This document shows, piece after piece, positions 13,687 through 33,729 of a stretch of DNA of 50,480 bases (within the stretch, counting starts at the first letter, position 1; the number at the start of each line of letters is the position of its first letter). The notes under the pieces are model-generated. The model worked only from the letters and a program-made list of their open reading frames with translations. It ran no database searches and was not told where the DNA came from. This DNA is from a virus. Where the stretch lies: positions 1 to 50,480 of the IMG/VR virus record IMGVR_UViG_3300029286_003728; one strand, 5' to 3'. Position numbers and translations under genes: made by a program.

Positions 13687-14689
13687 TTTCCACAATCCTT
13701 TCGAGAGCAGCTAATTCCATAGCGAGTCGTAGGTGGTGTGTGTTGGCCCAACGCATCCAGCCCTTGACGGAAGCGATGCAGGACCGGAAATATTCAAAAG
13801 TGACGTGGCCGGATGCCAGTGCCGCTGGCAATCTACGCAGACGCCGGCGTATTCGGGTCGCCGTTGATTTCCGCAGCAGCACATGGGTAGGGAAGTGCCT
13901 GTATCCCAGGAAATCAACCCCCTGAGTGATGGGAAAAACTGAGTTTTTGCTGAGTTTTAAGGCCAGGGAATCAGCAAGGAATGTTTCGATTTCGTCCGAC
14001 AGGCGCGCCAGGTATTTCTTGTCGTCATGGAACAGGCAGAAATCATCGCAGTACCGGACGTAATCCTTGACCCGCAGAGTGTGTTTGACGAAGTAATCCA
14101 GCTCATTCAGGTAGAGATTGCCCATCCATTGGCTGGTATAGTTCCCGATCGGGACATTCTTTCCGTCCGGGATGCTGTAGATGATCTCCCGGAACAGCCA
14201 GAGCGTGTCAGCGCATTTGATCTTGCGCTGGATGATATTATAGAGGATGTCGTGATCCACTGAGGGGTAGAATTTCGAGATATCCATCTTCAGGCAATAT
14301 CGATTTCTCCGGACAAACTCCATGCACCGTCTGGAGCCCTCGTGTAAGCCCTTGCCCTTGATGCAGGCGTAGGAATCAGAAATAAACAGCCCTTCCCAGA
14401 TCGGCTCGATCACCCGCATCAACACATGATGAATGACCCGATCCGGAGAGAACGGCAGGATGTAGATCAGCCGAGTCTTTGGTTCCCGGATAATCTTGGT
14501 CGTGTAGGGTGCCGGTTTGTAGGTTTTGTTGATCAGCAATTCCCGGATATGCTGAAGGTTCTCGTCCAGGCCCCGCTCGAATCGCCGCACTGCGCTTTTG
14601 CTCGATTTGCCCCGGCGTGCCTCTTTCCAGGCTGCCCGCACATTCTTTTCGCTCGTGATTAGCTGATACAAGTTGCCGTGTCGTTTCAT
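13661..14689 (-). CDS. DGR reverse transcriptase
   Basis: 342 aa starting MKRHGNLYQLI, the usual start of DGR RTs. Motif A: CLKMDISKFYPSVDH (catalytic D near residue 136). The DGR-specific motif 4 PIGNYTSQWMGNLYLN contains the (I/V/L)GxxxSQ signature, in place of the QG of retroviral or group II intron RTs. Motif C: YVRYCDDFCLF (YxDD). Thumb-like VDFLGYRHF follows. It copies the template RNA into cDNA with adenine errors, which replaces the variable repeats. The template repeat lies 150 bases upstream and the 499-aa target beyond it. The upstream ATG at 14722 would add 11 residues but has no better SD. Confidence 0.95.
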   Translation of the reverse strand: MKRHGNLYQLITSEKNVRAAWKEARRGKSSKSAVRRFERGLDENLQHIRELLINKTYKPAPYTTKIIREPKTRLIYILPFSPDRVIHHVLMRVIEPIWEGLFISDSYACIKGKGLHEGSRRCMEFVRRNRYCLKMDISKFYPSVDHDILYNIIQRKIKCADTLWLFREIIYSIPDGKNVPIGNYTSQWMGNLYLNELDYFVKHTLRVKDYVRYCDDFCLFHDDKKYLARLSDEIETFLADSLALKLSKNSVFPITQGVDFLGYRHFPTHVLLRKSTATRIRRRLRRLPAALASGHVTFEYFRSCIASVKGWMRWANTHHLRLAMELAALERIVENGGIAEAV

Positions 14690-14838
14690 TATTCTATCCG
14701 ATATATAAAATGCGACGAACAAGTTTCGCTTGCGCTACTGGTTGCCCGGCGCCTCCGCTATGTGTTTTGCCCCGGGACCATCCAGAGACAAGGCCATGAA
14801 ATCCAGCCAGGAGTATTACTCATTTCCGCAGTCCTGTA

Positions 14839-14954
14839 TCCGCAACGAAGCGCGCGCCGATATTCGTATTCGTATTCCAGCGATAGTTATTCGCATTCCG
14901 GCAGCGAGAACCGGCATTCGCGGCATTGTTCCAATTGCCCCCGGCGATCAGCCT
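14839..14954 (-). repeat. DGR template repeat TR
   Basis: 116-bp non-coding repeat between the RT gene and the 499-aa target, in a 346-bp stretch without a gene. It aligns without gaps to VR1 (4745-4860) and VR2 (15046-15161). If translated in the VR frame it is full of AAC/AAT Asn codons (about ten), the usual design of a template whose adenines are randomised. All VR1 differences and all but one edge difference in VR2 are at these adenines. The RNA made from it is the substrate of the RT. Confidence 0.95.
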
Positions 14955-15035
14955 CGGTCGATTTGACTTCATAGCCCTTAATCCTTAGTAATTCCTTTTA
15001 TGCCGTATTCCTCGCGGCGTGTGACGTGTTACGTG

Positions 15036-16535
15036 TTATAACGGGTCCGCAACGAAGCGCGCGCCGATAACCGGATCCGTAAACCAGCGAAAGTAATTCG
15101 CATGCCGGCAGCGAGAACCGGCACTCGCGGCATGGATCCAATCGCCCCCGGCGACCAGCTTAATATCTCCGTATGTACCTTGTTGATAAAGTGACCCTTT
15201 GCTTCCGGGTAAATCATACCAAGAAAATACTGGATCAGTGAAGGTCAGTAACGCCAGATCGAGACTTCCGGCAGTAGTAGTAGGAGATATAAATTCCAGC
15301 CTCTGGTGTCCTGCCGTATCGTCGTAGTTTACTGCTACACCGGGCGTCCCTGGGGTGGCATTGTAGGTAACTTTCAGAGTGTATCTCGGATTGCTCGTTG
15401 GGATATAAACATCCTTCAGGCCGGGAAGTGCGGCCAGCAACCGGGATGGTTGTATCGCATCCTCGTCGAAAAAGACCTGGTATCCGCCCACGGCGGCAGA
15501 TGCATCATGTTTGACAAGCAGTGTATAGGCCGATCCGAATGTCAGCCACTTGTCTGCCGTATCCGTCGAAACATTGCTGCAAAGATACGGGTTCCCGTCC
15601 GCGCCGAACTTGACATAAATCGGCATTCCGCCAGGTGAGGCGTCATGGGTAAGTGCCAGCGTAGCGCCGGCAATAATAATCGACAACGTGCCGGCATCGA
15701 AGCGATATGACTGGTCCCGTAACCATTGAGACACCGCCCCACAGCAATCCTCGCATCCGTTGTTTGCGATCATCCGCCTGGCTGCCGTATCTGAATGCCC
15801 GCCCGTAGTTACGGGATCTGCGGATGTGGATATGCTGGTTTCTTCGTTCGATCCTGCGGCGATCCTTTGAAATTCGGCGTCGGTCAACAGCCGCTTCCCA
15901 ACGGCATAGCCGTCAGCCACAAAATCATTCCAGTCTCTCATGTCGGAAATCGTTCCACCGTTGACAGAAGTCGTGCCCGTGCCCGTGCCGGATGCCAAAT
16001 AAATATCCACCCATTTTTCGATTCCGGGGTCATAGATCATCCCGACATTGACCAGGTTCTTTGCCCGATGCTTGAGGCACCAGACGGATGCGGGCAGGAT
16101 GTCCTTAGCAACGTACCCGGTTAGCGTATGCCCACCGATAGTGCCGACAGCCACACACAGGGTATGAAAACCCCCGATCTTGCGGGAATGTGCGGCATCA
16201 AATCCGGTCGGGTTGGTAGAGTTGGCGGAAACCTTGAATGATAGCGTCGTTCCATCCGTGCAGGCGTAAACGTAATAATCCGTACCGGCAGCCAGCGCCC
16301 CGGTGTCCAGATCGGTCACCGAGTCCACATGCACGACGGAGTCCAACAGAAACCAATGTGCCCCGATGTCGATAGGAATGTAATTTGCGTTTGGATTTAC
16401 AACCACCTCTGTGTTGTCACCAGCGGCGTGCGGTTCGATGAGCCACAGATTCTTTATCGCCCAAAAATTCTGGGACATGACCGCAGCGGCAATAATGTTG
16501 TCGCTGACGTCCAGCGTTACTTGTCGATTCGCCAT
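15036..16535 (-). CDS. DGR variable protein 2, likely receptor-binding tail protein
   Basis: 499 aa. N-terminal 115 residues look like a virion-attachment/oligomerisation part (MANRQVTLDVSDNI). Residues about 120-290 (IGGFHTLC, LKHRAK, MIYD, WVDIYLASG, GKRLLTDAEF, GCEDCCG) are shared with the 235-aa target. About 291-455 is an extra beta-rich insertion. Residues 459-497 are the variable region, ending GARFVADPL at the stop. The whole is a C-type-lectin-like (Mtd/FGE-type) ligand-binding fold. AAGGAAGGGGG precedes the ATG. Its position next to fibre genes suggests adsorption to changing host receptors. Confidence 0.9.
   Translation of the reverse strand: MANRQVTLDVSDNIIAAAVMSQNFWAIKNLWLIEPHAAGDNTEVVVNPNANYIPIDIGAHWFLLDSVVHVDSVTDLDTGALAAGTDYYVYACTDGTTLSFKVSANSTNPTGFDAAHSRKIGGFHTLCVAVGTIGGHTLTGYVAKDILPASVWCLKHRAKNLVNVGMIYDPGIEKWVDIYLASGTGTGTTSVNGGTISDMRDWNDFVADGYAVGKRLLTDAEFQRIAAGSNEETSISTSADPVTTGGHSDTAARRMIANNGCEDCCGAVSQWLRDQSYRFDAGTLSIIIAGATLALTHDASPGGMPIYVKFGADGNPYLCSNVSTDTADKWLTFGSAYTLLVKHDASAAVGGYQVFFDEDAIQPSRLLAALPGLKDVYIPTSNPRYTLKVTYNATPGTPGVAVNYDDTAGHQRLEFISPTTTAGSLDLALLTFTDPVFSWYDLPGSKGSLYQQGTYGDIKLVAGGDWIHAASAGSRCRHANYFRWFTDPVIGARFVADPL
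15046..15161 (-). repeat. DGR variable repeat VR2
   Basis: 116 bp aligned without gaps to TR. I count 15 differences; 14 are at template adenines (coding strand). The one exception is the penultimate base at the upstream edge, probably outside the copied segment. It sits at the very 3' end of the 499-aa gene. Confidence 0.95.
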
Positions 16536-18041: not shown

Positions 18042-18075
18042 AACCCGGGTCAGCATCCGAATGCCGACCCGGGTT
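18042..18075 (-). terminator. strong intrinsic terminator
   Basis: AACCCGGGTC (18042-18051) pairs perfectly with GACCCGGGTT (18066-18075), with a further inner GCAT/ATGC pairing and a CCGA loop. On the minus strand the stem is followed by a run of seven T (18043-18037). It lies 112 bases after the stop of the giant gene. Confidence 0.85.
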
Positions 18076-18186: not shown

Positions 18187-21100
18187 TCACCTTGCCATCT
18201 TCGCTTCCCGGATCTTTTCCTGATTCTCCCGCGAGATCTCGATCTTGATCCGTTGCCGGATCCCTTTCCTGGCGTTCGCCACGATCCCCGAAACCGCATC
18301 CGACTTGCGTTTGTCGCTCATCGTCTCCCATGTCTCCGAGTCGACCAAGGTCAGGAGGCGCTTTCGTGCGATTTCGCTCGTCTGTTCCAGATAGCGACCA
18401 TACTGATCCATCGTCATCTTGAACGGGATCCCCGCGATCTCGACCGAGCGGCTGGGTGGAGCCGTATGCAAAATTCCCTTCGCGGCCATCGCCTGCAACG
18501 CCTCATAAACCGGGTCTTTCCCCTTGGCCTTCGTGATCGGCAGGACGGCAGCGGGCGCCTCTTGAGCAATCTCAGCCAGTTTCTCGTTGAGACGTTTGGC
18601 GTATGCGGCCTTATCTTCCTCGTCGTATGACGGGTTCGCCTCGATCCGGGACTGTTCCTTTCGCAGATCTTGTATCCGGACAGACGCTTGCGCGCGGGTC
18701 TGTTCCGGCGATACGGAAACGATGTTCACCCCGAACCATCGTCCCAGGGCTTGCCCGGCAGAAACCTCACGGCCCCAGCGATCTTCGCCACCCGCAATTG
18801 CTCGGCCCGTGTATCCGATCGCGCCTTGCCGAGTGAACATCGAAGGTATCCAGATGTTGGCCATGTATTCGAGGAGTTTTGCGGCCTTCATCGGAGCGGG
18901 GTCCAGTTGATTGTATATCGGTGTCCCGAAATAGGAGTGCAGCGGCGGTTGATCCTCCCGCGCGGAGAGTCCTGTGTAGAGCATCGATAGGAACGGGTTC
19001 GAAATACCCATGTCGCGGATTGCCTCGCCCAGGTCCGTGGCTTTCATGTCGCGGGCAATCGCCAGATAGTTTCCCCATGGGAAGAAGTATTCCAGGTTAA
19101 CCCATTGCCACTGGCCCTTGTTTGACTTCCATGGCAGGATCATCATCGATCCGCTTTTCTTGATGTACGCGGGGAGTTGCTTTTCCAGATCTTCCCAGTC
19201 GTCATCATCCAGGTCGTTGAACCCCATCGCGAGCATCTTCGCCGCCGCGTAGATCAGCCCGAACTTTGCCAGCACCCAGGGCCGCTTTTTCAGTGACTCC
19301 GCGATCAGAGGGGCTATTTTGTATTGATATGTCGCGAAAGGCACAATGGTCTGCCGAAGCCCTTTGATCGACCGGCTGGTCAGCGAATAATCCATCCCCC
19401 ACTTCATCGCCTCCAGCGTCGCCTCGTCGATTGATTTACCAGCCTCGCGCTGCTCGATGAAGATTGACAGCTTGCTGATATCGTCGATCTTTCCGTAATA
19501 CTTGGCCACGTTCTTGACCGCGATCAGGATCTGGTCGATCCTTCCACCCTTCACCTTCCGGAACTCATCCAGGACGTCGTTGATCTCCGATACAAACCAG
19601 TTGGTATGGAATATCCCCATTCCAAACGCCTCTTCATAGTAGGCATCTTTTGCCTTCATCGCCTCGCACGCCCGGATAATGTCGCCGGGGATCTTCGATA
19701 GCTCGCGGCCCCTCATATTGTTCTGGATGATATTAGAGATGATGTTTCGCACAGCCGTCGGGAAGTTTAGCGCCACCTTCCCCATCTTGAAGGTCGCCAT
19801 CCCCTGCCGTTCGATCTCCAGAATCGTGTTCATGAGTTTCCCGCGATCGGTTGCCACATCAAGGACCGGCATCAGGTCGTCTGCTATCGCTTTCCGGACG
19901 AATGCGCCGGCCAGTGGGCCGTATCCCTTCGAGTTCGGAAGTTGAACGAAGTCCGCAGGCATGTTTTCGGATGCCGCTTCTGCCTTATCCAGCGCCTCGT
20001 GCAGTATCCTGTGAATTTCCGCGACCTCCGGCGTCGGGTGTTTGGCCAGCATCGCGTCGTAAGTCTTGGCCTCCTCGACGAGTTTTCCGATACCCATCGT
20101 CACGTTGCGCCTGGTCCGGCCACGGATGGGTGTCGCCAGCGGCTTTCCGATCGGGACCTTGATCAGCGACGGTTGCCATACCCAATCGGCGTTATCGGCA
20201 ATTGATTTCAGATAGTCCCACTTTGCGATGTCGGTGAGCGCCTTTCCCATACCTACCGGGACCGCCACGGAGGCGTCCTCGATCAGACCCAGTTCCTTCT
20301 TCTGCTGCATGGTCAGTTTGGTGTTGCGGCTCTTGGTATAGGAGAGGTTCAGCTTTCCCGAGGAGGTCAGGAAGATCGGAGTGTCTTCGCCCAAGACGTG
20401 TTTCGCATACATATAATGGATATACTTCCCGCGATACTTCTCAAACTGCCCTTCGGCGATAATTCCGCGATCCACCAGCATCTCGCCGATCACCTCGGTC
20501 CGACGCTGGATCATCTTGGCCGTCTCGCGGACATCCTCCGGCAGGTTTTCGATCGGGATATCGCCGTTCAGATACCAGAACATATCCTTTTTGACCTGGT
20601 CCGGGTAGGTATTTACCTTCTGGAAGAGTTCATCGATGAACCGAACCGCCCTGGCGACGTTCCCCATCGCTTCGTAGCGTTTGGCAAGGACTTTATCCCC
20701 ATCGGGCACCGTCGAGAACGGTTGCCAGAATTCCTTCCAGTGCTTGGCAAAGGCGCCCGCGGCTTCCCGAACAGCCGGCGAGGTCTTCGCGCCCATCATG
20801 GCCAGGCCGCGGTTCTTTACTTTTGACACCGCCGGTACGACTTTCTCCGCCATCACCTTCTCGGCTTTATCACCGACTTTCATCAGCAGCGTAAATTCAC
20901 CACCCGGGCCTGCTTTGTGCAGGGCTTTTTTACCTTCCGCAAGCAGATAGGCAAGATCGCTGTCTCCATACTTTGCCAGTTTTGCCAACCCAAGACGGCG
21001 CAAAGCTTCCCGGACAGATCCAAATACCTCTTTCGCCTTCTGCATGAGTGTCGGCGACTTCTGGCCGATCAACGCCAGTAATTCTGCAGCTATCCGCGCA

Positions 21101-24100
21101 TTCCGCATCTCCGGCGACGTCTCCGTCTTCGCGTCTTTCCAGTAGGTGTCAAATTCCGCCCGGTCGCCGTACTTGTCCGCTATTTTTGCCAGCCCCTGGT
21201 ATCCACCCAGCCTATTGTACAACCTGGCTAATTGCTGAATGCTGCCCTGGCCAAACAGTCTAAAAATACCCAGATGTCCGTACACTTCATGAAAGATTGA
21301 CTTTTCAAGCTGTTCTCGTGTAGCATGTGCGTCACGAATCAAATAAATGGAGCCATCTTTATGCAAGACAGCGTAGGTATTATCCTGGGTTCCGCCGGCA
21401 TCTTCTGCGGCCTTGCGTACCTCCTCCGGCAGCAGGTCAAACGAGTCCGAAAGTTTCAGCGTGACGACGCCGTCAAGTTTGCTCATCTCGCGGAAATCCC
21501 GTACAACAGAACCAGCGTCTTCAACGGTGATCGGTGCATCTACCCGCACCGACCCGGAGGCCCCGGCAAACAGGAAATCCCGGTCTCCGCGGGTGTATTG
21601 CGGGTAACTCACCACGCCACGATCGTCGACCAAGATGGTCTGATTAGCCCGCCATGATCCGGAGATATCATCGATAATGTCCAGGAGTTCTACTCTGCCG
21701 TAGGTGGCTTCGATGAATCGGAGGAGATTGACCGTTTCGTCGGGTTGCATGGCCCGGGTTGCAGTGTAGGCGATGATCCTGGTAGCGTTCGTCTTTTCGA
21801 GTCCCGAGAGGATCGCGTGTTGCTGTTCGCCCCGGATTTTTCGGTAGTCGGTGATCGCCACCTTTCCGACTGGTTGGTTTTTTATATTGAGTAAAAGGAG
21901 GCCACCTTCGGGCAGCTGGTCTTGAAGATAGTTATACGCGTCTTCCGCGCCGGTAAAGTGAGGAAGATTCTTTCCCGTTTTGGCGACGATCCGTTCGACA
22001 ACCGGGACGCTCGCCGTATTCTTTCCATCTTCGACGGGTTTCAAGTACGGGGTTCTGCCGGAGATCAAATCCGAACGGGTTGAGTACCGTTCCGGGGTCA
22101 CAGCCAGAGAATTTTTCAGTTCGACAGCGGTCCCCTTGAGGAGATTTTCCAGCCCATCATGAACCTTGGCATCTTCCAGGGACAACCGGGCCTCTCCCCC
22201 CGGATGATTGTGTACCAGGTAAAGAGACGTCGCTCCTTTGGTATTAATCGCCTGACCGGCGATCAAGACGGGATCGACCTGTGATACGGCCTGGAGACCG
22301 ATCGTGTGCTGGTAAATCTGGATGATTTTGTCGTTTTTGTCGAGCAGAATGGAAAGCAGTTTTTCCTGCGCCAGGTTGCCGATGAGGCTGCGAGCTACTT
22401 TTGCGGCGGCGTGGTTGGTGTGAACGGTTCGGGTCGGTACTCTGCCTCGCCAGGAGACTGCGGACGCAATCTCGGGATATACAATCCCTCCCTCCCCTTC
22501 GGGTACTGAACCGGGGACGTTGGCTTGTTCTCGTGTGGCAGGATACGTTTTTCCTTCGGAAATGTCTTCATAATATCCCTCGCGATTCTCTTGTACACGC
22601 GATCCGGCATCGTTGTCAAGGGAATTTTGTGATGTTCCAGCTTCACGGGTAATATCAACGACCGGGCGTCTTGCCGTCAATCTTTCGATAATGTCCGCAT
22701 CCTGGTCGCCTGTCGGGATGAAGTATCGGGTCTTGAAACTGATCCTCTCGGTAAAGACACCCGCGCGACTGAGTTCGTTGTTGTCGCTGTAATCCGGGCC
22801 GATCAGTTCTATCCGGTCATTGCCGGAAACGCGCCTCTTGGCAATCGACCAACCGTTGGAGAGCCGGATCCGGTATCCCTGCGTGATCCGGCGGACGATC
22901 TCCTGCGGCGTCGCATTGATCTGGCTCGTTGTGGCGCCCAGGTTTTGTAGAACCCTCGTCAAGTCCCCATCGTTGATCAGTCTGCCGACCATCTTCTCGC
23001 CTGTCTCGGTTTGCACCCGCATGATCCGCATGTGTCCCGTGTCGATCCTGTCCCAGATAGGCAGGATTGCACCGGTAATGAGATGTCGGCGCTCTGTCTC
23101 CATTACCGGTGTTTTGTCGTACAGCCGTTGCCACGGATCCCGGGCCTCGTCGGGGGTGATTGTTTCCCATTTCTCCGTATTGTTAAGATCGGACGTGTTC
23201 ACAGGTTGCTGATGGTAATTTGCCGCGCGGAGCGCCCGATATTCCTCTATGTTCCCGGATTCGGTTGTCCGCTGCCGTGACTCCGAGGCTACGACCCACA
23301 CATTCCCGCTCCGGATGTTGCGGTAAAACGGCCGGGAAAGATTAGCCGCGTCCTGGAAAGTAAACCGTTTGGTGCGATAGGATACGTCAAGCTCCACATA
23401 TTTTGTCTCGGCCCCGGTGCGTTCGTCGGTATAGACCACCTGCTCGTTCACCTTCTCCACCTTGTCTGCCCGGAGTGTTTCCAGGCCGGCATCAAGGGTG
23501 CCCTGCGATTCGTGCATTCTGATCACCGCGTCGAGCCGGTCTGAAAAGTGATCGAACGTCCGGTTCTGGACAGTGTAGGTCATGCTGAGAAGCCGGTTCA
23601 AAAACTGCCTGATCGGCGGAAGATCCAGCCGCAAGCCGCCATCGGCCTTTCGCAGGTTGAGCCCGGTCTCCCGTTCAAACGTGGCGATATCCAGGCCGGG
23701 GATGTCATTGTGTGCCAGGTCGATAAAGAACCGGCGCAAAGCCTCCTGGGCATAGGTGCTTTCCAGATTGTCCCGGGCCTGGAATATTCCCTGGCTACCC
23801 GTTTGCCGCTGGCCTTTTGTCAGTGCGCCCAGTTGGTCGAGGCGACGGGCGATCGACGATATAAACCGGCTTTGCCCCTTGAGGTCCGTGGTCACCAGGA
23901 TGTAGTGCGGGGCATTCGCCTGGTTTGTTCGGTGGGTACGGCCAAGACCCTGGACGGCCTTGTCGGACCTCCAGCCCGGTTGAACCAGGTAATGAACGCG
24001 TTTCCGGCGATTGACGACGGTGTTATCGGCATGGTAACTCCTGCCGGTGCCTCCGGCATCCGAAAAGACCAGAATCTGTTTCTTGTCGTTCATGAAGGCA

Positions 24101-27100
24101 TCGGCATCGCCATCGGCGACGGAACGGGTGCGCTTTTCCTCGACCTTTTTCCCTTCCTTGTTGATCACGATGCGGCGCCCGCGGCCTGTTACTTCCGATA
24201 CCTTATCCGCTCCCAGTTGATTGAGAACGATCTCCAGTGGCCCGTCGGGGACAGCAATGCTCCCGAGCCGTTCCAATAGAGCGTCCCTTGCCCGGACTGC
24301 GTCAGCGTTGAGCACCGGATTCCCGTTGGAATCGACCACTTTGCGGGTCTGCGGGTTCCCGTTTTCGTCGGTGTATTCCTCATACTGCTGGACAGGGAAG
24401 GAGTGTTCGATGTAGGTCATCAGGTGATCCCGTGGCGTCAGGTCGAGATCGTCCAGTTCGTCGCCTTCCTCCATTCTGGCCATGGCCCGTTCCTGCGAGG
24501 CCTCGTTGGTGTTGACCAGTTGCATCACGACGGCATTACCGTCGGCAATATCTTTTTTCGCTGCGGTAATCACCGAGGGCATCTGCATCGAGGTGATGAT
24601 CTGATTGAAAAAACGCTGGTGCGCGCCCCAAAATGCGGATTTTGCGGCAGATTTACCCTGTGCGTTCGCCTGTGTGGTCGCCAGGGCGGCATCGATGTTT
24701 TCCAGGACCGTCTGCCATGCCACGGCCAGTTGGTCGTAGATCTCCTTCTGTTTATCAGTAAGGGGATGTTCCAGCCTGCCGTAGGTGACGTCTTCGAACG
24801 ACAAGGATCGGGATATGTAGTTTCCCATCGCCTTCATATCACGTGCGACAAGTTCCATGCCGGCGAGTCCCGATTGGGCAATCGAGTTGATGAACCGGGA
24901 CATGTCGCCAAAGGAGGTTCCGGGACCCCACAGACCCAGGCGTTGGGCATAGGCGAGATTTGATATTTCGGTGGCGCCGGTAGCCGAAACGTAAACGATC
25001 CGCGCCTGGGGAAGCGCTGCCTGTAAGGCGAGCCCCGCAAGCGCTTGTTGCGATGCCTGCTGTGTGCCTCGGTTGCCGCGTTGGGCGACGGCATTGCCCA
25101 TGTTGTGAGATTCGTCAAAGATGATCACCCCGTCGAAATCGGCGCCGAGCCAGGCTGTTATCTGCGCCAGGCGTGTCTTGCCCATATCCACCCCTCCGAC
25201 CATCTTCCGCTCTTTTGACTTGAGCGTGGAGTAGGTGGTAAACAGAATCCCTCTTGACATATTGAGGGGATTGCCCGGCTTGATCTTACGATGTTCAAGC
25301 AGAGGCGCCGTGGTCCAGCCGATACCGCCTATATCCCGCTTTGCGTCTTTGACAAGGGAGGTTTTTTCGCTGATCCAGACGGCCTTTTTTCGTCCCTGGT
25401 TCCAGTTGTCATAGATGATTCCAGCGATTTCCCTGCCCTTGCCGACGCCGGTGCCGTCGCCGATAAAGAATCCTTTGCGTTCCCCGGTATCCAGATGTTC
25501 CTGGTGGGCTTGCCCGGCGTAGATGATCGCCTCAAGCTGCGCGTCGCTGAGTTTGCCCGTCTCGATGATGTTCTTGGGAATGTTGGGTTGATACGAAGCC
25601 GCCGGTGGGGGGGTTCCCGCCATGCTTGCGCTTTGAACGAGTTTTCCGGGGTGGGGTTTCGCCCCGGCGATGGTCACTTTTTCAGGGCGGTAGTTTTCGT
25701 AGATAGAGGCGCTGAACGCCTCATGGGGTTGTTCGGCTTGATTGACTGCGGTCAGGGCAGCGGATTCGCCCGCGGGTAATCCTGTACGGTTGCGCTCATC
25801 CTGCTGTCTAATTGATCCAGGCAATTCTGCGCCAGGTCTGCCGGGTCCGGGCTCCGTTTGATTTGGTCGAGTTGCAGATATGTTGCCGCGGCCTCCGGGT
25901 TCCAGTGAAGATAAAGGCTGTCCAGTTGTTCTCGCACCCGAAGATCCGACACCAACACCACTTCCTTCTCCAGTTGCTCCGAGGTCAGTTGCAGGACGTG
26001 CAGGTATTCCGGGTCGGGATGAGACTTCTCCTGCAGGAGGAGTTTTAGCGCTAATTTGTTGATCGGATGCCGGTTGGCTTTCCCGGCCTGTTCGAGTTGC
26101 TTCTTGTCTGTCATTTCGCACCCCCTCGATCAGTGGTAAAAGTTCTGTGAGTTTTTCCACCTTTCCGGTAATTTTAGTATAATCACCTGGTTTTATTTTG
26201 TCAATAATAATTATCCGGGTGTCATAATCGGTCCCGTACTTCGCAAAGCTCTTCCCACTGATCCCGATATTGGCCCGGACGACGTTCTCCTTTTCGATTC
26301 CATCCCACCAGACGCGGTGTGTCGGTGAGGAGATGGATTCCCCTATGATCGCAACCAGCCGCCCATTCGGCGCCAGCCGTTTCAATGCCTGGTCGATGTG
26401 TTTCATCCCTTCCCGGGTGTCACGGGAGCCTTCTTTTCTGCCTGCCGTGGAACTAAAGGGCGGATTCATCACGATCACAGTGGGAACGATCTCCGCCGGC
26501 AGGATATTGTGAAGCTGTTCACCGTTTTCGGCAAACACCTGGTCGAAGCCGAGTTCGCGCAGGATCGCGACCCGCCGTGGCGCGATCTCGTTGACGATCG
26601 TCTCTTTCACTTTGGCATTCTTTGCGAAGATCGCCAGGTCACCGGTTCCGGCTGATGGTTCCAGGTAGATATCGTCTGTCTTGAGATTTGCCGCCCAGTT
26701 GGCGATATAGGCCAGGGCAGGCGGTGTGGAAAACTGCTGGAATTCGTCCATCTCCGCGGTCCTGCGGGTCTGTGTCGGCAGAAGCGTATCGGTCATCTTT
26801 TGCAATGCCTCGACCATATTTTTTGCATGGACGATGTTCATGGTTGGATCCAGGACGAGGGACTCTCCGATATATTGGTTTACCCCCATTTCCATGGCAT
26901 CATAGGCGTCTTTGATCGAATACTTCCCCTCTGCCATTGTTCCGGCGAAAGCGGTATCCGCCCAATGGCCCAACTGCTGCCAGGTGATAGGTTGCTTCTT
27001 TGCAATCGCGTTCTGAACATTGGCCGCGATGCTTGTAAACGGTTTGATGTCCGGCTCACCGGCGTGCCGCTCGGATGTAGTAACCTCCATGTAGAACCGC

Positions 27101-30100
27101 TTGATATAAGGAAGGATCGCCTGGGGCTCGAATCCTCGTGCGCCAAACTGGCTGATCGTCTCCTTCATCCAGTCCTTGACCTCAATCGCCGCCGCGCGGA
27201 AGTGATCATAAGTCGCCTGCAGGTGGGGTTTGATCGCCTGGTAGAGCTCCTCGTCGAAGACGCCGGTGCCCATCATGCTGATCGGGCCTTTGCCCGCACG
27301 TTTCATGATCTCGGCAATCGCGTCATAAGAAGAAGCCACCCCTGCGGCGACCTCGGATGCAGCCTTTCCGAGCGACGGCGCGGGTTGGACCAGATCGAAA
27401 TCCTCGGCCTTGAAGTGCATATTCCCCGTATTTTCGGTCTTGATTCCCTGCCCACCGTCCTGGTAAGATTGGATATGCTGAATTCTTCCGCCGCTTTTCT
27501 CGCTGATACCGCTCCCTGGTTTCGGTCTTACTTGATCGCCGATTTGAAACTTGACGGGAGGATTCGAAGTCTGTTTCTCTGTCGGCTTTTCCTCGACTAT
27601 CGTCGTTCCCGGACGGATCCCAAGTCTCTCCATGAGTTCCGGTGTCGGATCACCGTTGTAGAAGCTCCAGACCTTCTTCGGACCATACCAGCGTCCACCT
27701 GCTTTTTTGATCGTCTCGGAATGCTCACGAGTGTTTCCGGATACGTTCCAGACGGTCTTGCCGGTGTTGGTTGCCCCTTTGGTGACAACCAGTCCGAGGT
27801 CTCCCAGATTGCCCGCCGCTTTACTCGGCATGGCCGCAGTTGTTTGTGCAGTTGTCACGGGTGTCATCTGCTGACCGGTAGCGATCGCCACACCCCGTGA
27901 CGGCGCCGTCTTCTCCGGTAGATACTTCTTTGCCTCCTCCGGATACTTCCCGGCCCATTCGTCGAACTGGCGCTGTGCCGCCGCGGCCTCCTGACGGTAT
28001 CCTTCAGCCCGGCTCTTGTGTTCAGTGACGCTCGACGGCTTGCGCGCTCGCTGTGCGGCTGCCTCGAAGTCTCTGGCTTTTTGCTTCCGGTATTGGATAT
28101 GGTCGAGGACGTGATCAGGTTCCATGAACCGGTTGTCGATCTTGATGTCGGGGATCACCGACGGCCGTTCAATCCCTTCTTCGCGGGAGATATCCGCCTC
28201 GCTCGCATGAAACTCCGTTCCGGAATCCGATTTAACCTGATAGTAATGCGAACGGTTCTCTGATCGGCCGCCGCCGTATAGTCCGATCGACTGCATCGTC
28301 ACCGTATCGACTTTGGTGATTATCCCATGCCGGCCGCTTTTCAGGACGACGCGTTCGCCCTGCTGAAACGCCGCGCCTTCAACCTCCTTCGGTGCGGTTT
28401 TGGTCGATTCCTCTTGCTGGACTTTCCTTTCGTACTGGGAAAGCGCGCTCCTGTATGCACTTCCGGCGTCCATCCCCGTTCCGGCGATAGTAACAAACGG
28501 CTGCCGCCGTGAAATCACAACCTTAAACGTATCCGGTAGCAGATCCGGTTTGCGATGGTGGACGACATAGCCCGCTTCCGGGTGGTCGGGAACGGGTTTC
28601 TGCTGCCCCGTAACGGTCAGATCGGGCAACGCGCTGGCGGGCGTTGTTGTTGTTCCAGGGGGCTCGGCCTTCGCCGGCTTACGTTCTTCCTCTGTCAGAT
28701 AGGTCCCCGGGCGGTTCTTTTCGTCGATCGTAGTCTGCATACCGCCGTGGGTCGGGACCATCTTCACCGATTCATACTGTTTGACGCCGTTTTCGATGAT
28801 GTAGCGCCGGGGGCCTTCCGTATAGATATCCAGACCATCAGGATTCTTGCCGATTGCCTTCGGCGGGGGTTGCAATGGTTTCTCTACACCGTCCTCGATG
28901 GTGAACATGGACCCGTCGGATCGTTGGTATAGTGGCGCTCCGTCGTGATTCTTGCCAACCACCTTCGGCGCTGCCGGTTTGCCGACAGCCGTCGTCACGC
29001 CTTGGGATGGCGCGGGTTTGGGTAGTGGTTCCGGGGCGGTATTCGTCTCCGCAGGTTTTCCCATTTCGTCCAGGGCGTCGCTGGCCAGCGCATCAAACTC
29101 GTCGCCTGTGAGAATATCGCCTGTCTTCGGAGAGACCTTTGCCACGGCGGTAAGTACCTTATCCGCCACAGGAGTTTCTGCTTTTGCTTCCAGTCCAGCA
29201 TCCTTAACGGGCGCCGGTGCCTCAAGTTGAACGGCTTCCGGCTCAACCGCCATTTCCGGCACAGACCCTTCAATCTCAAACTCTGTTGCGTCTTCTGCCT
29301 GTTTTAAATAATCAACGCCCTTGATGATCGTGCCGTCTTTTACTTTCCGGATCGTTCCGTCCTTCAGGGTAACGGTTCCCTGGTCGTCGATATCGGTAAC
29401 GGTAAATTCCTCGCCAAAGATGACGAAACGATCTCCCTCCAGAAGATCTGTCACTGCAAGCTGTTTATCCCGGACGGGGTTAAACCCTCTTTCGGCCCAG
29501 AATGGTTCTTCCAGGATGTGGCCCGGGATGCGTTCACTTGCGGCTGCAACGATCGCGGCATAGACGTCTTTCTGCTTTTCCGTCATTTGCGCCCCGGTCT
29601 GCGCCTTTTTGATCACGGTGAGTGCATCGTTTTTTGATACGGACATTCCCTGTTTATTAACCGCGGTTAGCCAGTCCACTCCTGCCGGTACTTTTGTAAA
29701 TGTGTCATCAGGTCTGGCGATCATGGAGGCAGAGCCTGCATTTTGCAGTTGGCTTTCCATGAGTCCCAGGAGGTACTGGTGCATGTCTTCGTCTTCTTCG
29801 GTTTTTATCGACTGCCTGACGTAATCCTTGTTTTCTTCCTCCGATATAATGCCCTCATCTGTGATCGGAGCTTCCTTCGATTTAATCCCCATGATCTGAA
29901 GCGATTGCGGGATAGTCTCCGCGACCGCGGACGTCTGGAGAATTTTGTCCAGGACCTTTTTTTCGTCTTCCGGGAGCCGGCCCTGGCTTGCTTCTTCCTG
30001 CAAGAGAGCGATGTCCGAGTCCGATGGCCGCGACGCTGGCCAGAATGATAATGTTTTCCGAGCAGAGGTTACCGCCTTTCGTTTCCTGTTTAGTTCCTCA

Positions 30101-32067
30101 GACAGGATATTGGATTCCCGGTCACGGATATCCTGTTCCCGTTTGGCATCGACGGCCGCGATTCGGTTTTTTACCAGAAGCGGCCGCATTGTATTGAGAT
30201 CCACGGGCTGACCGTTCAATTGGTACAGCCCCCGGTCGTCCGGGGTGATGATCAGCCCCAGTCCAGGTCCTTTTTTGTCCGTAGGAGATACGGCGAGAGC
30301 GGATACCAGCCGTTTTTCAGAAAGGCTGAACGTCTCGTCGAAGATCTTCTGCTTCACCGGATCATCGCCCGCGAGTTGAGATCTCAACGTATCCCGGGTC
30401 GTCACGGCCTGATCGACTTGTATCTGCTGCGTCTGTGCGGCTGCCTCGGCAGCGGCGCTTTCCTCCGCATCTCTGCGGGTAATCTCTGCCAGGCGCGCCT
30501 GTTCCAGCGCCTGCTGATTTTCCTCATTCAGTTCAGAAAGGGCCGCGGTGAAGAGATCCTGCCCTTTCTTTCGGTTTTCGGCCTTTTTCCCCTGATTGAT
30601 CGCCTTTGTCAGCGGTTCGGCAAGCGCAACATCTTTACCGGCCTGCGGCCCGGAGGCCAAAGCTCCGGCGCCTGGGTCGGTTGTTGTTTTTCCGGCAGTC
30701 GTACCAGTCGCCGTTTCATCAATCGCAACCGCATCCTGTCCGGATTGCTGTTCGGAAACGGGAATCGTCTCTTTCATCCCGAACATCCCCAGGACGCCTT
30801 TTTTCGTCTTGGTCGCTGCTCGCCCGAAAGTTCCCGGCGGTGGTGTATATTTTCCATCTCCATAAAGCAGATAGCTGACCATCTCTTTGCCGTCCACTTC
30901 GGGAATAGTCTGTTTTTGTGCAATATCCTTGACTTCCGTGCCGCCGGTTATGGCGTCGGCCCCTGGCGGCGTTTCTTCAAGTTTCGTCCGGATCTCGTTG
31001 ATCCGGGTATCCAGTTGCGCGGCAATCTCCTGATCAGTAACCCCTGCATCCTTGAGGGCAAATACTGCATCCTTGACGCCGAGTTGCTCGGCCAGACTGT
31101 TGTATTGTTTAACCTGCTTCTTGTGGACGCTGGTTCCAATCGTCCCGCCGGCAGCGCCGCCTAACGCTCCGCCGATGATGCCTGATTCCAGAATCCGGCC
31201 GATATTATCCAATAGGGTCTGATCCGGTTTATGCCCCAGCTTTTCCACCAGGATATTGACGCCTTCCTGGGCGGATTCCGTTGATCCCTCCAAAAAAGCC
31301 TGCCGGACAAAGCGCTTGACCAACCTGTCTGCCCCGGCCTGTTTTAGAAATAGATTGTCGAATGGAAGAAGTTCAATAAGGCTGTTGACGGTTCCGGCGG
31401 CCAGGCCTTCCATAGTGGCCACGCGCTCTATGGTATCAGCATCAAATGTGCCGGCCTGTGCCATTTCCTGTTTTGCCTGGGTGTACGCGCTCCCCGCTTC
31501 CAGCGTCATGGATCCGGACCATGCGCCCGTCAGTGCCGCGCCGCGAATGGCTTTAGCGCCCCAGTTTGCCGCCTGTGCACCGCGCAGGGCGGCATACCCC
31601 GGCAACATCATGGTAACCATGTTGGGCAGGTTTTCACCGAGACTGCGAACCCACCAACGCCAGTCTCCCATCCGTTTTGGATGTTCCCATACCGTCTCTT
31701 CTTTAAGGTAATCCGGGCGTTTCAGGGCTGAGTTTTCCTGGAGTTCCTGCAGATATTCCCGTGCGGATCCTGCTCCGGGCACACCCAGCATCTCCACCGT
31801 TCCCGCAATGGCCTCCCCGGTTTGAACCACTCCGGAGGCCAGCGCGGAAACCGTTTCTGCAATCACACCGCGGGGTTTTTCGGGCTTCGCGGGGGGTTGT
31901 TTAAGAAATGTAAAATCACCGGTATCGGCTCTTTTGATGACATCGAGCATATCAAACGGGCCGATAGCCGACGTTTTTCTTGCACCGGGAGACAGGGGAT
32001 CTTGGGAAAAAATACCGGCATTCGCCTGCCGGACAGCATCGAGCATATTAAAGGTGGATTCGGGCAT
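18187..32067 (-). CDS. giant polyvalent protein (methylase-helicase-JAB-peptidase)
   Basis: 4626 aa, over a quarter of the window, uninterrupted. From the N-terminus: two repeats (FNMLDAVRQANAGIF, FDMLDVIKRADTGDF); Ala/Gly-rich hydrophobic region (about 130-310); long linkers; N6-adenine methylase (PSAGTGD near 1806, NPPF near 1869); Strawberry-notch-like SF2 helicase (GDGTGVGKG near 2206, IIFDESHNM near 2317, GLGRTHRTNQ near 2709); RadC-like JAB (VHNHPGGEARLSLED near 3288); metallopeptidase-like HEVYGH near 3594; a 900-residue C-terminus resembling LPD-type polyvalent-protein domains. The methylase-helicase pair recalls P1 DarB. Such proteins are packaged and injected to resist host defence or help DNA entry. 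SD AGAGGA; a CRISPR-like repeat lies directly upstream. Confidence 0.92.
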   Translation of the reverse strand: MPESTFNMLDAVRQANAGIFSQDPLSPGARKTSAIGPFDMLDVIKRADTGDFTFLKQPPAKPEKPRGVIAETVSALASGVVQTGEAIAGTVEMLGVPGAGSAREYLQELQENSALKRPDYLKEETVWEHPKRMGDWRWWVRSLGENLPNMVTMMLPGYAALRGAQAANWGAKAIRGAALTGAWSGSMTLEAGSAYTQAKQEMAQAGTFDADTIERVATMEGLAAGTVNSLIELLPFDNLFLKQAGADRLVKRFVRQAFLEGSTESAQEGVNILVEKLGHKPDQTLLDNIGRILESGIIGGALGGAAGGTIGTSVHKKQVKQYNSLAEQLGVKDAVFALKDAGVTDQEIAAQLDTRINEIRTKLEETPPGADAITGGTEVKDIAQKQTIPEVDGKEMVSYLLYGDGKYTPPPGTFGRAATKTKKGVLGMFGMKETIPVSEQQSGQDAVAIDETATGTTAGKTTTDPGAGALASGPQAGKDVALAEPLTKAINQGKKAENRKKGQDLFTAALSELNEENQQALEQARLAEITRRDAEESAAAEAAAQTQQIQVDQAVTTRDTLRSQLAGDDPVKQKIFDETFSLSEKRLVSALAVSPTDKKGPGLGLIITPDDRGLYQLNGQPVDLNTMRPLLVKNRIAAVDAKREQDIRDRESNILSEELNRKRKAVTSARKTLSFWPASRPSDSDIALLQEEASQGRLPEDEKKVLDKILQTSAVAETIPQSLQIMGIKSKEAPITDEGIISEEENKDYVRQSIKTEEDEDMHQYLLGLMESQLQNAGSASMIARPDDTFTKVPAGVDWLTAVNKQGMSVSKNDALTVIKKAQTGAQMTEKQKDVYAAIVAAASERIPGHILEEPFWAERGFNPVRDKQLAVTDLLEGDRFVIFGEEFTVTDIDDQGTVTLKDGTIRKVKDGTIIKGVDYLKQAEDATEFEIEGSVPEMAVEPEAVQLEAPAPVKDAGLEAKAETPVADKVLTAVAKVSPKTGDILTGDEFDALASDALDEMGKPAETNTAPEPLPKPAPSQGVTTAVGKPAAPKVVGKNHDGAPLYQRSDGSMFTIEDGVEKPLQPPPKAIGKNPDGLDIYTEGPRRYIIENGVKQYESVKMVPTHGGMQTTIDEKNRPGTYLTEEERKPAKAEPPGTTTTPASALPDLTVTGQQKPVPDHPEAGYVVHHRKPDLLPDTFKVVISRRQPFVTIAGTGMDAGSAYRSALSQYERKVQQEESTKTAPKEVEGAAFQQGERVVLKSGRHGIITKVDTVTMQSIGLYGGGRSENRSHYYQVKSDSGTEFHASEADISREEGIERPSVIPDIKIDNRFMEPDHVLDHIQYRKQKARDFEAAAQRARKPSSVTEHKSRAEGYRQEAAAAQRQFDEWAGKYPEEAKKYLPEKTAPSRGVAIATGQQMTPVTTAQTTAAMPSKAAGNLGDLGLVVTKGATNTGKTVWNVSGNTREHSETIKKAGGRWYGPKKVWSFYNGDPTPELMERLGIRPGTTIVEEKPTEKQTSNPPVKFQIGDQVRPKPGSGISEKSGGRIQHIQSYQDGGQGIKTENTGNMHFKAEDFDLVQPAPSLGKAASEVAAGVASSYDAIAEIMKRAGKGPISMMGTGVFDEELYQAIKPHLQATYDHFRAAAIEVKDWMKETISQFGARGFEPQAILPYIKRFYMEVTTSERHAGEPDIKPFTSIAANVQNAIAKKQPITWQQLGHWADTAFAGTMAEGKYSIKDAYDAMEMGVNQYIGESLVLDPTMNIVHAKNMVEALQKMTDTLLPTQTRRTAEMDEFQQFSTPPALAYIANWAANLKTDDIYLEPSAGTGDLAIFAKNAKVKETIVNEIAPRRVAILRELGFDQVFAENGEQLHNILPAEIVPTVIVMNPPFSSTAGRKEGSRDTREGMKHIDQALKRLAPNGRLVAIIGESISSPTHRVWWDGIEKENVVRANIGISGKSFAKYGTDYDTRIIIIDKIKPGDYTKITGKVEKLTELLPLIEGVRNDRQEATRTGRESQPASDQQISAKTPPAGEVSSRPGIPARPATDLGATGEGSGVGVGSSGARTTGQPLSSLEPGGRGNISATRPNQTEPGPGRPGAELPGSIRQQDERNRTGLPAGESAALTAVNQAEQPHEAFSASIYENYRPEKVTIAGAKPHPGKLVQSASMAGTPPPAASYQPNIPKNIIETGKLSDAQLEAIIYAGQAHQEHLDTGERKGFFIGDGTGVGKGREIAGIIYDNWNQGRKKAVWISEKTSLVKDAKRDIGGIGWTTAPLLEHRKIKPGNPLNMSRGILFTTYSTLKSKERKMVGGVDMGKTRLAQITAWLGADFDGVIIFDESHNMGNAVAQRGNRGTQQASQQALAGLALQAALPQARIVYVSATGATEISNLAYAQRLGLWGPGTSFGDMSRFINSIAQSGLAGMELVARDMKAMGNYISRSLSFEDVTYGRLEHPLTDKQKEIYDQLAVAWQTVLENIDAALATTQANAQGKSAAKSAFWGAHQRFFNQIITSMQMPSVITAAKKDIADGNAVVMQLVNTNEASQERAMARMEEGDELDDLDLTPRDHLMTYIEHSFPVQQYEEYTDENGNPQTRKVVDSNGNPVLNADAVRARDALLERLGSIAVPDGPLEIVLNQLGADKVSEVTGRGRRIVINKEGKKVEEKRTRSVADGDADAFMNDKKQILVFSDAGGTGRSYHADNTVVNRRKRVHYLVQPGWRSDKAVQGLGRTHRTNQANAPHYILVTTDLKGQSRFISSIARRLDQLGALTKGQRQTGSQGIFQARDNLESTYAQEALRRFFIDLAHNDIPGLDIATFERETGLNLRKADGGLRLDLPPIRQFLNRLLSMTYTVQNRTFDHFSDRLDAVIRMHESQGTLDAGLETLRADKVEKVNEQVVYTDERTGAETKYVELDVSYRTKRFTFQDAANLSRPFYRNIRSGNVWVVASESRQRTTESGNIEEYRALRAANYHQQPVNTSDLNNTEKWETITPDEARDPWQRLYDKTPVMETERRHLITGAILPIWDRIDTGHMRIMRVQTETGEKMVGRLINDGDLTRVLQNLGATTSQINATPQEIVRRITQGYRIRLSNGWSIAKRRVSGNDRIELIGPDYSDNNELSRAGVFTERISFKTRYFIPTGDQDADIIERLTARRPVVDITREAGTSQNSLDNDAGSRVQENREGYYEDISEGKTYPATREQANVPGSVPEGEGGIVYPEIASAVSWRGRVPTRTVHTNHAAAKVARSLIGNLAQEKLLSILLDKNDKIIQIYQHTIGLQAVSQVDPVLIAGQAINTKGATSLYLVHNHPGGEARLSLEDAKVHDGLENLLKGTAVELKNSLAVTPERYSTRSDLISGRTPYLKPVEDGKNTASVPVVERIVAKTGKNLPHFTGAEDAYNYLQDQLPEGGLLLLNIKNQPVGKVAITDYRKIRGEQQHAILSGLEKTNATRIIAYTATRAMQPDETVNLLRFIEATYGRVELLDIIDDISGSWRANQTILVDDRGVVSYPQYTRGDRDFLFAGASGSVRVDAPITVEDAGSVVRDFREMSKLDGVVTLKLSDSFDLLPEEVRKAAEDAGGTQDNTYAVLHKDGSIYLIRDAHATREQLEKSIFHEVYGHLGIFRLFGQGSIQQLARLYNRLGGYQGLAKIADKYGDRAEFDTYWKDAKTETSPEMRNARIAAELLALIGQKSPTLMQKAKEVFGSVREALRRLGLAKLAKYGDSDLAYLLAEGKKALHKAGPGGEFTLLMKVGDKAEKVMAEKVVPAVSKVKNRGLAMMGAKTSPAVREAAGAFAKHWKEFWQPFSTVPDGDKVLAKRYEAMGNVARAVRFIDELFQKVNTYPDQVKKDMFWYLNGDIPIENLPEDVRETAKMIQRRTEVIGEMLVDRGIIAEGQFEKYRGKYIHYMYAKHVLGEDTPIFLTSSGKLNLSYTKSRNTKLTMQQKKELGLIEDASVAVPVGMGKALTDIAKWDYLKSIADNADWVWQPSLIKVPIGKPLATPIRGRTRRNVTMGIGKLVEEAKTYDAMLAKHPTPEVAEIHRILHEALDKAEAASENMPADFVQLPNSKGYGPLAGAFVRKAIADDLMPVLDVATDRGKLMNTILEIERQGMATFKMGKVALNFPTAVRNIISNIIQNNMRGRELSKIPGDIIRACEAMKAKDAYYEEAFGMGIFHTNWFVSEINDVLDEFRKVKGGRIDQILIAVKNVAKYYGKIDDISKLSIFIEQREAGKSIDEATLEAMKWGMDYSLTSRSIKGLRQTIVPFATYQYKIAPLIAESLKKRPWVLAKFGLIYAAAKMLAMGFNDLDDDDWEDLEKQLPAYIKKSGSMMILPWKSNKGQWQWVNLEYFFPWGNYLAIARDMKATDLGEAIRDMGISNPFLSMLYTGLSAREDQPPLHSYFGTPIYNQLDPAPMKAAKLLEYMANIWIPSMFTRQGAIGYTGRAIAGGEDRWGREVSAGQALGRWFGVNIVSVSPEQTRAQASVRIQDLRKEQSRIEANPSYDEEDKAAYAKRLNEKLAEIAQEAPAAVLPITKAKGKDPVYEALQAMAAKGILHTAPPSRSVEIAGIPFKMTMDQYGRYLEQTSEIARKRLLTLVDSETWETMSDKRKSDAVSGIVANARKGIRQRIKIEISRENQEKIREAKMAR

Positions 32068-32079
32068 GTTTGTTCCTCT

Positions 32080-32112
32080 GTTTCAATCCACGCTCCTCGC
32101 GGGAGGGACGAC
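32080..32112 (-). repeat. solitary type I-C-like CRISPR repeat
   Basis: 33 bp. On the minus strand it begins GTCGTCCCTCCC, has a stem-loop (CGTCCCTC / GAGGAGCG, one mismatch and one GU, CCGC loop) and ends GCGTGGATTGAAAC, the conserved 3' end of type I-C repeats. Translating it in other frames gives PRGAWIET, SIHAPRG and FQSTLLAGG, the well-known spurious peptides of such repeats. Only one copy is present; no array, leader or cas gene is visible. It ends 12 bases before the ATG of the giant gene, abutting its SD. Confidence 0.8.
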
Positions 32113-32135
32113 GTGTCCACAATGTTCCGGGCTCA

Positions 32136-33284
32136 TCAGTCTCCGGTGAAACTGTACTGATCGGCTTCATTGGCGATTCTGTTCAAGTTTCCGCTCGACT
32201 GTTTTTTCTGTTGTAACTGATAAGCGTGACCGCGCATGTAGTCATAGGCATCCTTGTAATTGCCCTGTTTTATCCTCTGTACGTAACCTGCCGTTATCGC
32301 CTGCTGAAGTTTTTCCGGCGCGGCGCCCTGAATGATTTTTGCAGCTTCTTCAATCCGTTCATTATAGAACGGGTCAACGCCTATCTTTTTTCGCAAAACA
32401 TCAAAGGCATCCGGTGCAGAATTTAAATAATCTCCCGCATCATGCGTTTCTTTTAACCCGGCCCGGACTGTTTGGACTGACTTTGCAGCCTCCTCGGCTG
32501 ACTGCCCGCCGGCGATCAATTTTGCAACCAGGGCAGAATCGTCTTTGGATGTCCAGTCTCCGACCTTCGTCATTTTTCCGTACAAGACCCCTTGCGCCAA
32601 CGCCCTTTTGTACTGCTGCTCCAGCGCCGGGACGTCTTCCGGTTTGGCCGTAGGCAAAGCCTTTTCTATAGCCTTGCGTTTTTCGTTGGCCACGGCCACA
32701 CCCATGTGCGGTATATATCCCCGATATTGATTCAGGAGCTTATCGGCGTCATCCCGCGTGTACGTTGCATTCAGGTTAGAAAAACCCATGGCGGTTAATA
32801 TTTCCGGTTCGATGCCTGCGCCTTGCGCCCAAGTTGACAGTGTCTGTGTCTGCAACCCGTGCCGGATCGCCTGTGACTGTGCACCAGCGACGCCTGCGCG
32901 CGCTGTGTTCTCCGCTATCTGCGACGGAATCAACCGGCCCTGTTGATCCAGGGTGGCCTGATGCATTGCAACCTGATTCTCCTGACCCGTTGCAGTAAGA
33001 GCCTCGGAAGCCTGGTTTGCGCGTGCTCGCTCGGTTGCCACATCGCTGTCAATCCCGATCCGGGTCAGTTCCCGGAGGTTCGCAAGTTTGTCCCGCTCCG
33101 CTCCGCTTCGCACCAGTTCCGTTTCCGTATTGGCTTTGGCCAGGGCCAGATTCAGGTTTGATTCGTGCACCTTGGTAGCCATGTAATCGGCCATGATATC
33201 CTTGAGCGAAAGTCGGGTTTCCTTCAGCGCTTCCGGAACCGCGCCATAGGGATTGTTCCCGTATCCGAAATTTACGTTCTGCAT
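32136..33284 (-). CDS. internal virion protein candidate
   Basis: 382 aa, starting MQNVNFGYGNNPYGAVPEAL. Almost wholly helical, rich in Ala/Gln/Glu (ALAKANTETELVRSGAE, HQATLDQQGRLIPSQIAEN). No membrane helix. Length, composition and position between tail genes and the giant gene resemble the ejected inner-core proteins of T7/N4-like podoviruses. No enzyme motif seen. Confidence 0.65.
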   Translation of the reverse strand: MQNVNFGYGNNPYGAVPEALKETRLSLKDIMADYMATKVHESNLNLALAKANTETELVRSGAERDKLANLRELTRIGIDSDVATERARANQASEALTATGQENQVAMHQATLDQQGRLIPSQIAENTARAGVAGAQSQAIRHGLQTQTLSTWAQGAGIEPEILTAMGFSNLNATYTRDDADKLLNQYRGYIPHMGVAVANEKRKAIEKALPTAKPEDVPALEQQYKRALAQGVLYGKMTKVGDWTSKDDSALVAKLIAGGQSAEEAAKSVQTVRAGLKETHDAGDYLNSAPDAFDVLRKKIGVDPFYNERIEEAAKIIQGAAPEKLQQAITAGYVQRIKQGNYKDAYDYMRGHAYQLQQKKQSSGNLNRIANEADQYSFTGD

Positions 33285-33303
33285 AATGAACCTCCGTTTT
33301 TGA

Positions 33304-33729
33304 TCAATCTTTTAAAAACGCGGGATCGTCACCGCAAAGGGGCATGACAAAGCTTTGCATATTGGTCTCTACCGGCAGCATTCCCCAGGATTCCATCATT
33401 TTTTTAAACGCCGTCGATGCGGTAACTCCGTAAAGAAATGTGCATCCGTGCTCAACGGCAATGGATTTAAGGGTATTGAACAATTCAGCAAACGCCGCCT
33501 GCCTTTCCTGCGGCATTACTTCTCTTGATCCGGTAGCCCAGGTGGGCATTGCCACGCTTCCCGGCTCCAGATACATGAAAAGCGCGGCGATAAATGTTTC
33601 GTCGTCCCGGAGGGCCACATATCCCGTCTTTGGCAAAAACTCGATCGGGCAGGGAAGCCAGCCATAATGTTCCCAGATCTCCCGGAGCTTGGGATAATGC
33701 TTTTCTTTATCGAATTTCACTAATTTCAT
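33304..33729 (-). CDS. GNAT-like protein in tail/internal-protein cluster
   Basis: 141 aa. KEKHYPKLREIWEHYGW, then GYVALRDDETFIAALFMYLE, PQERQAAFAELFNTL, FLYGVTASTAFKKMMESWGM: order and spacing fit a degenerate GNAT acetyltransferase fold (beta1-alpha-beta2-beta3-beta4, late helix-strand). The acetyl-CoA loop Q/RxxGxG/A is not clear, so catalysis is uncertain. Similar small GNAT-like genes lie beside internal-protein genes in other podoviruses. Its start overlaps the preceding gene by 23 bp. Confidence 0.6.
   Translation of the reverse strand: MKLVKFDKEKHYPKLREIWEHYGWLPCPIEFLPKTGYVALRDDETFIAALFMYLEPGSVAMPTWATGSREVMPQERQAAFAELFNTLKSIAVEHGCTFLYGVTASTAFKKMMESWGMLPVETNMQSFVMPLCGDDPAFLKD

Follow-up and report, generated by a model that had tools for sequence, protein, structure and literature searches.

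Why does a phage carry one CRISPR repeat directly in front of the ribosome-binding site of a giant gene? The window analysed here is the whole 50,480-nt stretch of IMG/VR record IMGVR_UViG_3300029286_003728, which derives from a temperate tailed phage encoding an integrase, a CI-type repressor, a terminase, a head-tail adaptor, a major head protein (capsid) and a diversity-generating retroelement (DGR). The initial annotation had described a 33-bp type I-C-like repeat on the sense strand, and we confirm GTCGTCCCTCCCGCGAGGAGCGTGGATTGAAAC, 33 nt long, running from 32112 to 32080; this is the sense strand for the giant gene and, in terms of the window, the minus strand. Judged by its sequence, the 33-mer is a type I-C CRISPR repeat. 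A PWM built from other solitary viral I-C repeats gives 38.2 bits at this site against -6 for the next best site of the whole window, although the score lies below that of every training member (minimum 40.9); the cut-off of SRUFinder itself is 41.1 bits, and the 38.2 bits comes from our separate PWM. Searching the 33 bp elsewhere, one of the checks proposed in the initial annotation, returned no other record with the exact 33-mer in the viral and genome contig collections searched, while the nearest host-array repeats (GTCGCTCCTCACGCGAGGAGCG... and GTCGCTCCCCCCACGAGGAGCG...) are 3 edits away, in favour of the I-C identity. Host I-C repeats from Anaerolineae (L084) and Clostridiales Family XIII (L077) share 30 of 33 positions with the phage copy, with an identical 3' part (GAGGAGCGTGGATTGAAAC). 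An ultimate origin of the repeat in a host CRISPR array belongs to the explanation that we prefer and is proposed with the same reserve, at a little below an even chance.

The repeat is solitary, as had been noted. The 14-mer GCGTGGATTGAAAC occurs exactly once in the window, with one further chance match carrying 3 mismatches, and no second repeat lies in the flanks; there is one repeat only, and not the two or more with a spacer that make an array or mini-array. Among the 30 window ORFs scanned with PADLOC no cas gene was found, in agreement with the initial annotation. A reverse transcriptase match to Cas1_IIIb was rejected as a cas gene, since it covers only the RT domain of the DGR reverse transcriptase. 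This DGR (window 13661-16535) comprises the reverse transcriptase (13661-14722) and an Mtd-like tail protein (15036-16535), and a protein at 4693-5400 matches the C-terminal part of the Mtd-like tail family, being possibly a second variable DGR target. Two other proteins matched PADLOC models: one of 307 aa (568-1491, minus strand) hits PHROG 2045 and the PADLOC candidate defence models PDC-M41B and PDC-M30B (E 1e-47), and one of 162 aa (9080-9568, plus strand), near the repressor and integrase, hits the PADLOC model C3a212 (SNc+LTD; E 3e-15).

The position in the leader of the giant gene, and the claim that the repeat ends exactly where the Shine-Dalgarno (SD) sequence begins, were both right: AGAGGA starts with the directly adjacent base, followed by ACAAAC and the ATG (32067-32065) of the 4626-aa ORF (Table 1). 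The repeat is intergenic, in a 68-nt gap between co-directional genes. A role as phage attachment site or CRISPR-array integration site was discarded, the repeat being in the middle of an operon and about 21 kb from the integrase. No sigma-70-like promoter was found in 31900-33400, and the gene order, together with the terminator at 18072, suggests operonic read-through across the repeat. With no promoter-like site nearby, expression would be late, which would be odd for an anti-CRISPR. The helicase and RadC domains suggest that the giant protein may be anti-defence. Its N-terminus contains a short motif twice (FNMLDAVRQANAG and FDMLDVIKRADTG, window 32037-32052 and 31941-31956, 96 bp apart).

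Table 1. Features around the solitary repeat and at the end of its transcription unit (window coordinates)
Feature	Position	Strand	Basis
Solitary type I-C CRISPR repeat GTCGTCCCTCCCGCGAGGAGCGTGGATTGAAAC	32080..32112	-	sequence, host-repeat comparison, PWM score
Predicted 11-nt 5' handle UGGAUUGAAAC, equal to the I-C consensus exactly	32080..32090	-	
Would-be 22-nt 3' handle with stem after Cas5d cleavage	32091..32112	-	cleavage rule of PMC3890593 and PMC5965380; its use here inferred
Shine-Dalgarno AGAGGA of the giant gene, beginning at the first base past the repeat	32074..32079	-	sequence
Putative pseudo-spacer: stretch in the spacer position of a crRNA-like product, with SD and start codon	32046..32079	-	inferred
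Giant polyvalent gene, 4626 aa, strawberry-notch-type helicase (AAA_34, Helicase_C_4) and RadC-like JAB domain	18187..32067	-	
Upstream gene, 382 aa, co-directional, no family match; stop codon 23 nt ahead of the repeat	32136..33284	-	
Terminator-like hairpin (CCGGCAGGCGAATGCCGG, then TATTTTTT), 47 nt past the repeat and within the giant coding sequence; significance doubtful	32015..32032	-	
Strong terminator that closes the transcription unit past the giant gene: 12-bp stem of -21.6 kcal/mol with T7	18045..18072	-	

The stem-loop claimed for the repeat is only partly borne out. The base of the stem (C3-G22 and G4-C21) and the whole 3' strand are intact, and the canonical stem would consist of G4-C21, U5.G20, C6.A19 (a mismatch), C7-G18, C8-G17, U9-A16 and C10-G15. 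Host I-C repeats have a paired CTCC/GGAG or CTCCTC/GAGGAG stem, whereas the phage copy reads TCCCTC, resulting in the U.G and C.A positions. The RNA folding proposed as a check gave a minimum free energy (MFE) structure of -8.4 that is not the canonical I-C fold, which lies 0.7 kcal/mol higher (-7.7), and the fold is no better than that of shuffled sequences (z = -0.43). This stem is weaker than in other viral solitary repeats: among the matches listed, 73 of 81 solitary viral I-C repeats adopt the canonical fold (mean -13.6 kcal/mol), and each of the two pairs on which the search pattern placed no constraint is preserved in 79/81, pair 6/19, C.A in our copy, being one of them. A separate count of stem covariation used loci already selected for a paired stem, which makes it partly circular; the 81 repeats are the set without such filtering. 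The window repeat is a somewhat damaged copy. Cas5d reportedly recognises the hairpin together with the 3' single strand and cuts where the hairpin begins, at its base, so that an 11-nt 5' handle remains (PMC3890593, PMC5965380); with the stem base and the 3' strand intact here, cleavage of this copy is possible, but not assured.

The same leader anatomy recurs in other phages. An unbiased I-C pattern detected at least 119 stretches in IMG/VR, from which arrays and duplicates were then removed. Among the matches listed, 69 solitary repeats were compared, and an SD and a start codon lie within 60 nt on the sense side in 15 of them, against 4 of 69 on the antisense side and 7.6% of random places; allowing for intergenic placement, the figures are 10/48 against 10.8% expected (p = 0.03). 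A directly abutting SD (within 14 nt) was found in 5 of the 81 listed repeats in sense and in 1 in antisense (1.6% at random). The enrichment over chance is modest to weak, and a small replication set of repeats ending in GAAAT had no case with this anatomy (0/12). When a targeted scan was added to the listed set, at least 18 other viral loci showed a lone I-C repeat with a paired stem, 0-14 nt, an SD and a start codon, and in several of them the repeat lies 0-36 nt past a co-directional gene, as in the window. The genes after the repeats encode a P22-type coat, a gp23-like protein (below the cut-off), head decoration, head-tail adaptor, tail lysin, transglycosylase and sigma factor. The arrangement keeps recurring, as a minority form and at a frequency modestly above chance. 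Some single contigs carry two to four dispersed I-C repeats over many kb (those behind L109/L113, G009; L126/L127, G010; L131, G015; L103, G013; L167, G012; L176, G014; and L121), sometimes with different stems or on opposite strands, and in L121 two I-C copies each lie ahead of a different gene. In an isolated phage, Bifidobacterium phage BigBern1 (MT006237.1, 15607-15629; L219), an intergenic I-C-like repeat lies 96 nt ahead of a 276-bp gene.

Intrinsic terminators within 200 nt past solitary I-C repeats are found in 13/81 cases in sense against 2/81 in antisense and 2.1% at random places, among the matches listed, and this excess on the sense strand argues that solitary I-C repeats as a class act as RNA. 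On the other hand, none of the 15 leader-type cases among the matches listed has a terminator, pointing to two forms: repeats that make small RNAs of their own and repeats embedded in mRNA, with the window repeat belonging to the latter. L106, L148, L153, L199 and others have a solitary I-C repeat followed by a strong terminator and are good candidates for RNA anti-CRISPRs (Racr) of the stand-alone, small-RNA sort. In the 60 nt downstream, complements of the handle (at least 6 nt) occur less often than at random places (3/81 among the matches listed, against 11.5%), as if the handles were kept free; the window is an exception, with a 7-nt complement.

The giant gene has relatives at 14 IMG/VR loci, with cores 47-60% similar, and close relatives of its N-terminus and of the upstream gene were not found in IMG/VR. 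In those loci that show the start, the distance to the upstream gene goes, by reading, from overlap to about 25 nt, against 68 nt in the window, and these leaders contain no I-C repeat. Conservation of the repeat, a further check named by the initial annotation, could be followed only at this 47-60% protein level, where the repeat is missing and the gap too is shorter than 68 nt. Our search for a host among Desulfobacterota and Chloroflexota samples yielded no more than relatives with 56-58% similar giant cores, in two prophages of one Desulfobacterota genome. In one of them the giant ORF opens directly behind the upstream gene, and both leaders lack a visible repeat. I-C repeats are present in 61 of 395 genomes of the Desulfobacterota sample and in 0 of 29 from the order of the genome with the prophages. 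Similarity of the integrase to plasmids gave no host hint, and neither a matching I-C array nor a host was identified in the samples searched.

Solitary repeat units (SRUs) already count as a class of anti-CRISPRs, and one member, RacrIC1 from a Bifidobacterium prophage, is of type I-C and functional: it is co-transcribed with a protein gene and active from the bicistronic transcript (Camara-Wilpert et al. 2023, Nature; PMC10651486). The initial annotation proposed a solitary repeat of this type, and we agree that the repeat is an SRU of the kind shown to act as Racr, although with a weaker stem than other viral solitary repeats. We tentatively suggest, at slightly less than an even chance, that it acts as a decoy of the Racr kind on a late polycistronic mRNA. 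Lying between two virion-operon genes, the repeat would be transcribed within this mRNA. In an I-C host, Cas5d would bind to the base of the stem together with the intact single-stranded 3' side, and its cut would fall just ahead of UGGAUUGAAAC. The mRNA on the upstream side would be left with a 3' handle that holds Cas5d and could serve Cas7 as an assembly site, and Cas5d and Cas7 would be sequestered as for RacrIF1, which acts via the product upstream of the cut, occupied by Cas6f and a Cas7f filament (PMC10651486). On the other side, the SD of the giant cistron would survive at a distance of 11 nt from the new 5' end, and translation of this cistron would still be possible. RacrIF1 needs an intact stem (PMC10651486); the C.A mismatch and the no-better-than-shuffle fold of the window copy count against the decoy, as do the late expression expected here and the weak leader enrichment.

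The main rival is a serious one, although we regard it as rather unlikely: a decaying relic. The phage would have captured an I-C repeat that was formerly a Racr, or was what remained of a collapsed mini-array, and that now drifts in the gap with no current function. Such decay would account for the C.A mismatch and the U.G wobble at stem positions otherwise kept in 79/81 of the matches listed, for a PWM score of 38.2 below the training minimum of 40.9, for the non-canonical MFE structure, and for a repeat that is absent from all examined relatives of the giant gene and, as an exact sequence, from every other record searched. However, the 14-nt 3' part still follows the consensus, C3-G22 and G4-C21 are intact, and a single change, A19 to G, would restore the paired stem, while drift in a compact operon would be expected to erase the 3' half as well.

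The idea of a leader that responds to Cas5d seems to us unlikely. Here Cas5d or Cascade on the handle would cover the SD and AUG, or cleavage would trim the leader, and the output of the giant gene would track the presence of I-C. The SD and AUG lie exactly in the pseudo-spacer position, the anatomy is repeated at 18 further loci ahead of unrelated genes, and there are multi-repeat phages, one contig having two repeats each ahead of a different gene; against this, the downstream genes have no common function and RacrIF1 works without an intact 5' handle (PMC10651486). The handle GUGGAUU can also pair with AAUCCAC in the first codons, leaving the SD and AUG in the loop, but handle-CDS pairing of at least 7 nt is found in 0/81 other solitary repeats among the matches listed and in about 2-3% of random 60-mers. 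As it is not enriched in the other cases, we treat this pairing as chance. A broader version, slightly less probable still, takes host-derived I-C repeats as portable leader elements on the mRNAs of virion genes, in which Cas5d processing would drain Cas5d and Cas7 and also set the expression or processing of the downstream gene.

Early termination has a poor chance. In this case a small-RNA Racr of about 107 nt (repeat, pseudo-spacer and terminator) would be made, with read-through feeding the giant gene. The hairpin (-10.3 kcal/mol) is followed by TATTTTTT, the canonical repeat stem becomes the MFE structure in the 107-nt RNA, and terminators within 200 nt, rare at random (2.1%), are enriched past other solitary I-C repeats. 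Nevertheless, the 2 such sites that a simple scan detected compare with 2.4 expected per 1500 nt, the hairpin lies inside coding sequence, and leader-type cases with a terminator number 0/15 among the matches listed. Chance resemblance to an I-C repeat, which could claim nothing beyond the short conserved 14-mer, is statistically refuted by 38.2 bits over about 4x10^5 tested placements, with the next best site at -6 bits.

For the preferred decoy, the closest comparison is with SRUs and Racr, including RacrIC1 (PMC10651486), which also have one CRISPR repeat of a known subtype, here I-C, intergenic on a virus, with neither a partner repeat nor cas genes. RacrIC1 differs in its location downstream of acrIC5, while the window repeat is 5' of the SD of a giant gene in a virion operon, with no acr identified; the window repeat also has no promoter-like site, a promoter within 250 bp being a selection criterion for Racr candidates in that study, and its stem is weaker. 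Viral mini-CRISPR arrays (reviewed in PMC11656645) likewise place a host-type repeat on a virus, but with 1-2 spacers between repeats, in contrast to a single repeat followed by a ribosome-binding site. The term "UTR" does not occur in the main text of PMC10651486, and SD-abutting, mRNA-embedded I-C repeats ahead of virion genes are not described in the papers found, although single loci may stand in the supplementary lists of the SRU survey. SRUs and candidate Racr are known as a kind.

Work on known Racr has treated solitary repeats mainly as small RNAs; in this phage and in others, I-C repeats are built into mRNA directly 5' of the SD and repeatedly placed ahead of virion genes, whose transcripts should be abundant. 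Cleavage of such leaders by Cas5d, if it occurs, would turn phage mRNAs into CRISPR decoys as well, or would make phage gene expression sensitive to host immunity. If I-C repeats were portable leader elements, the output of phage genes would be wired to the presence of a host CRISPR system.
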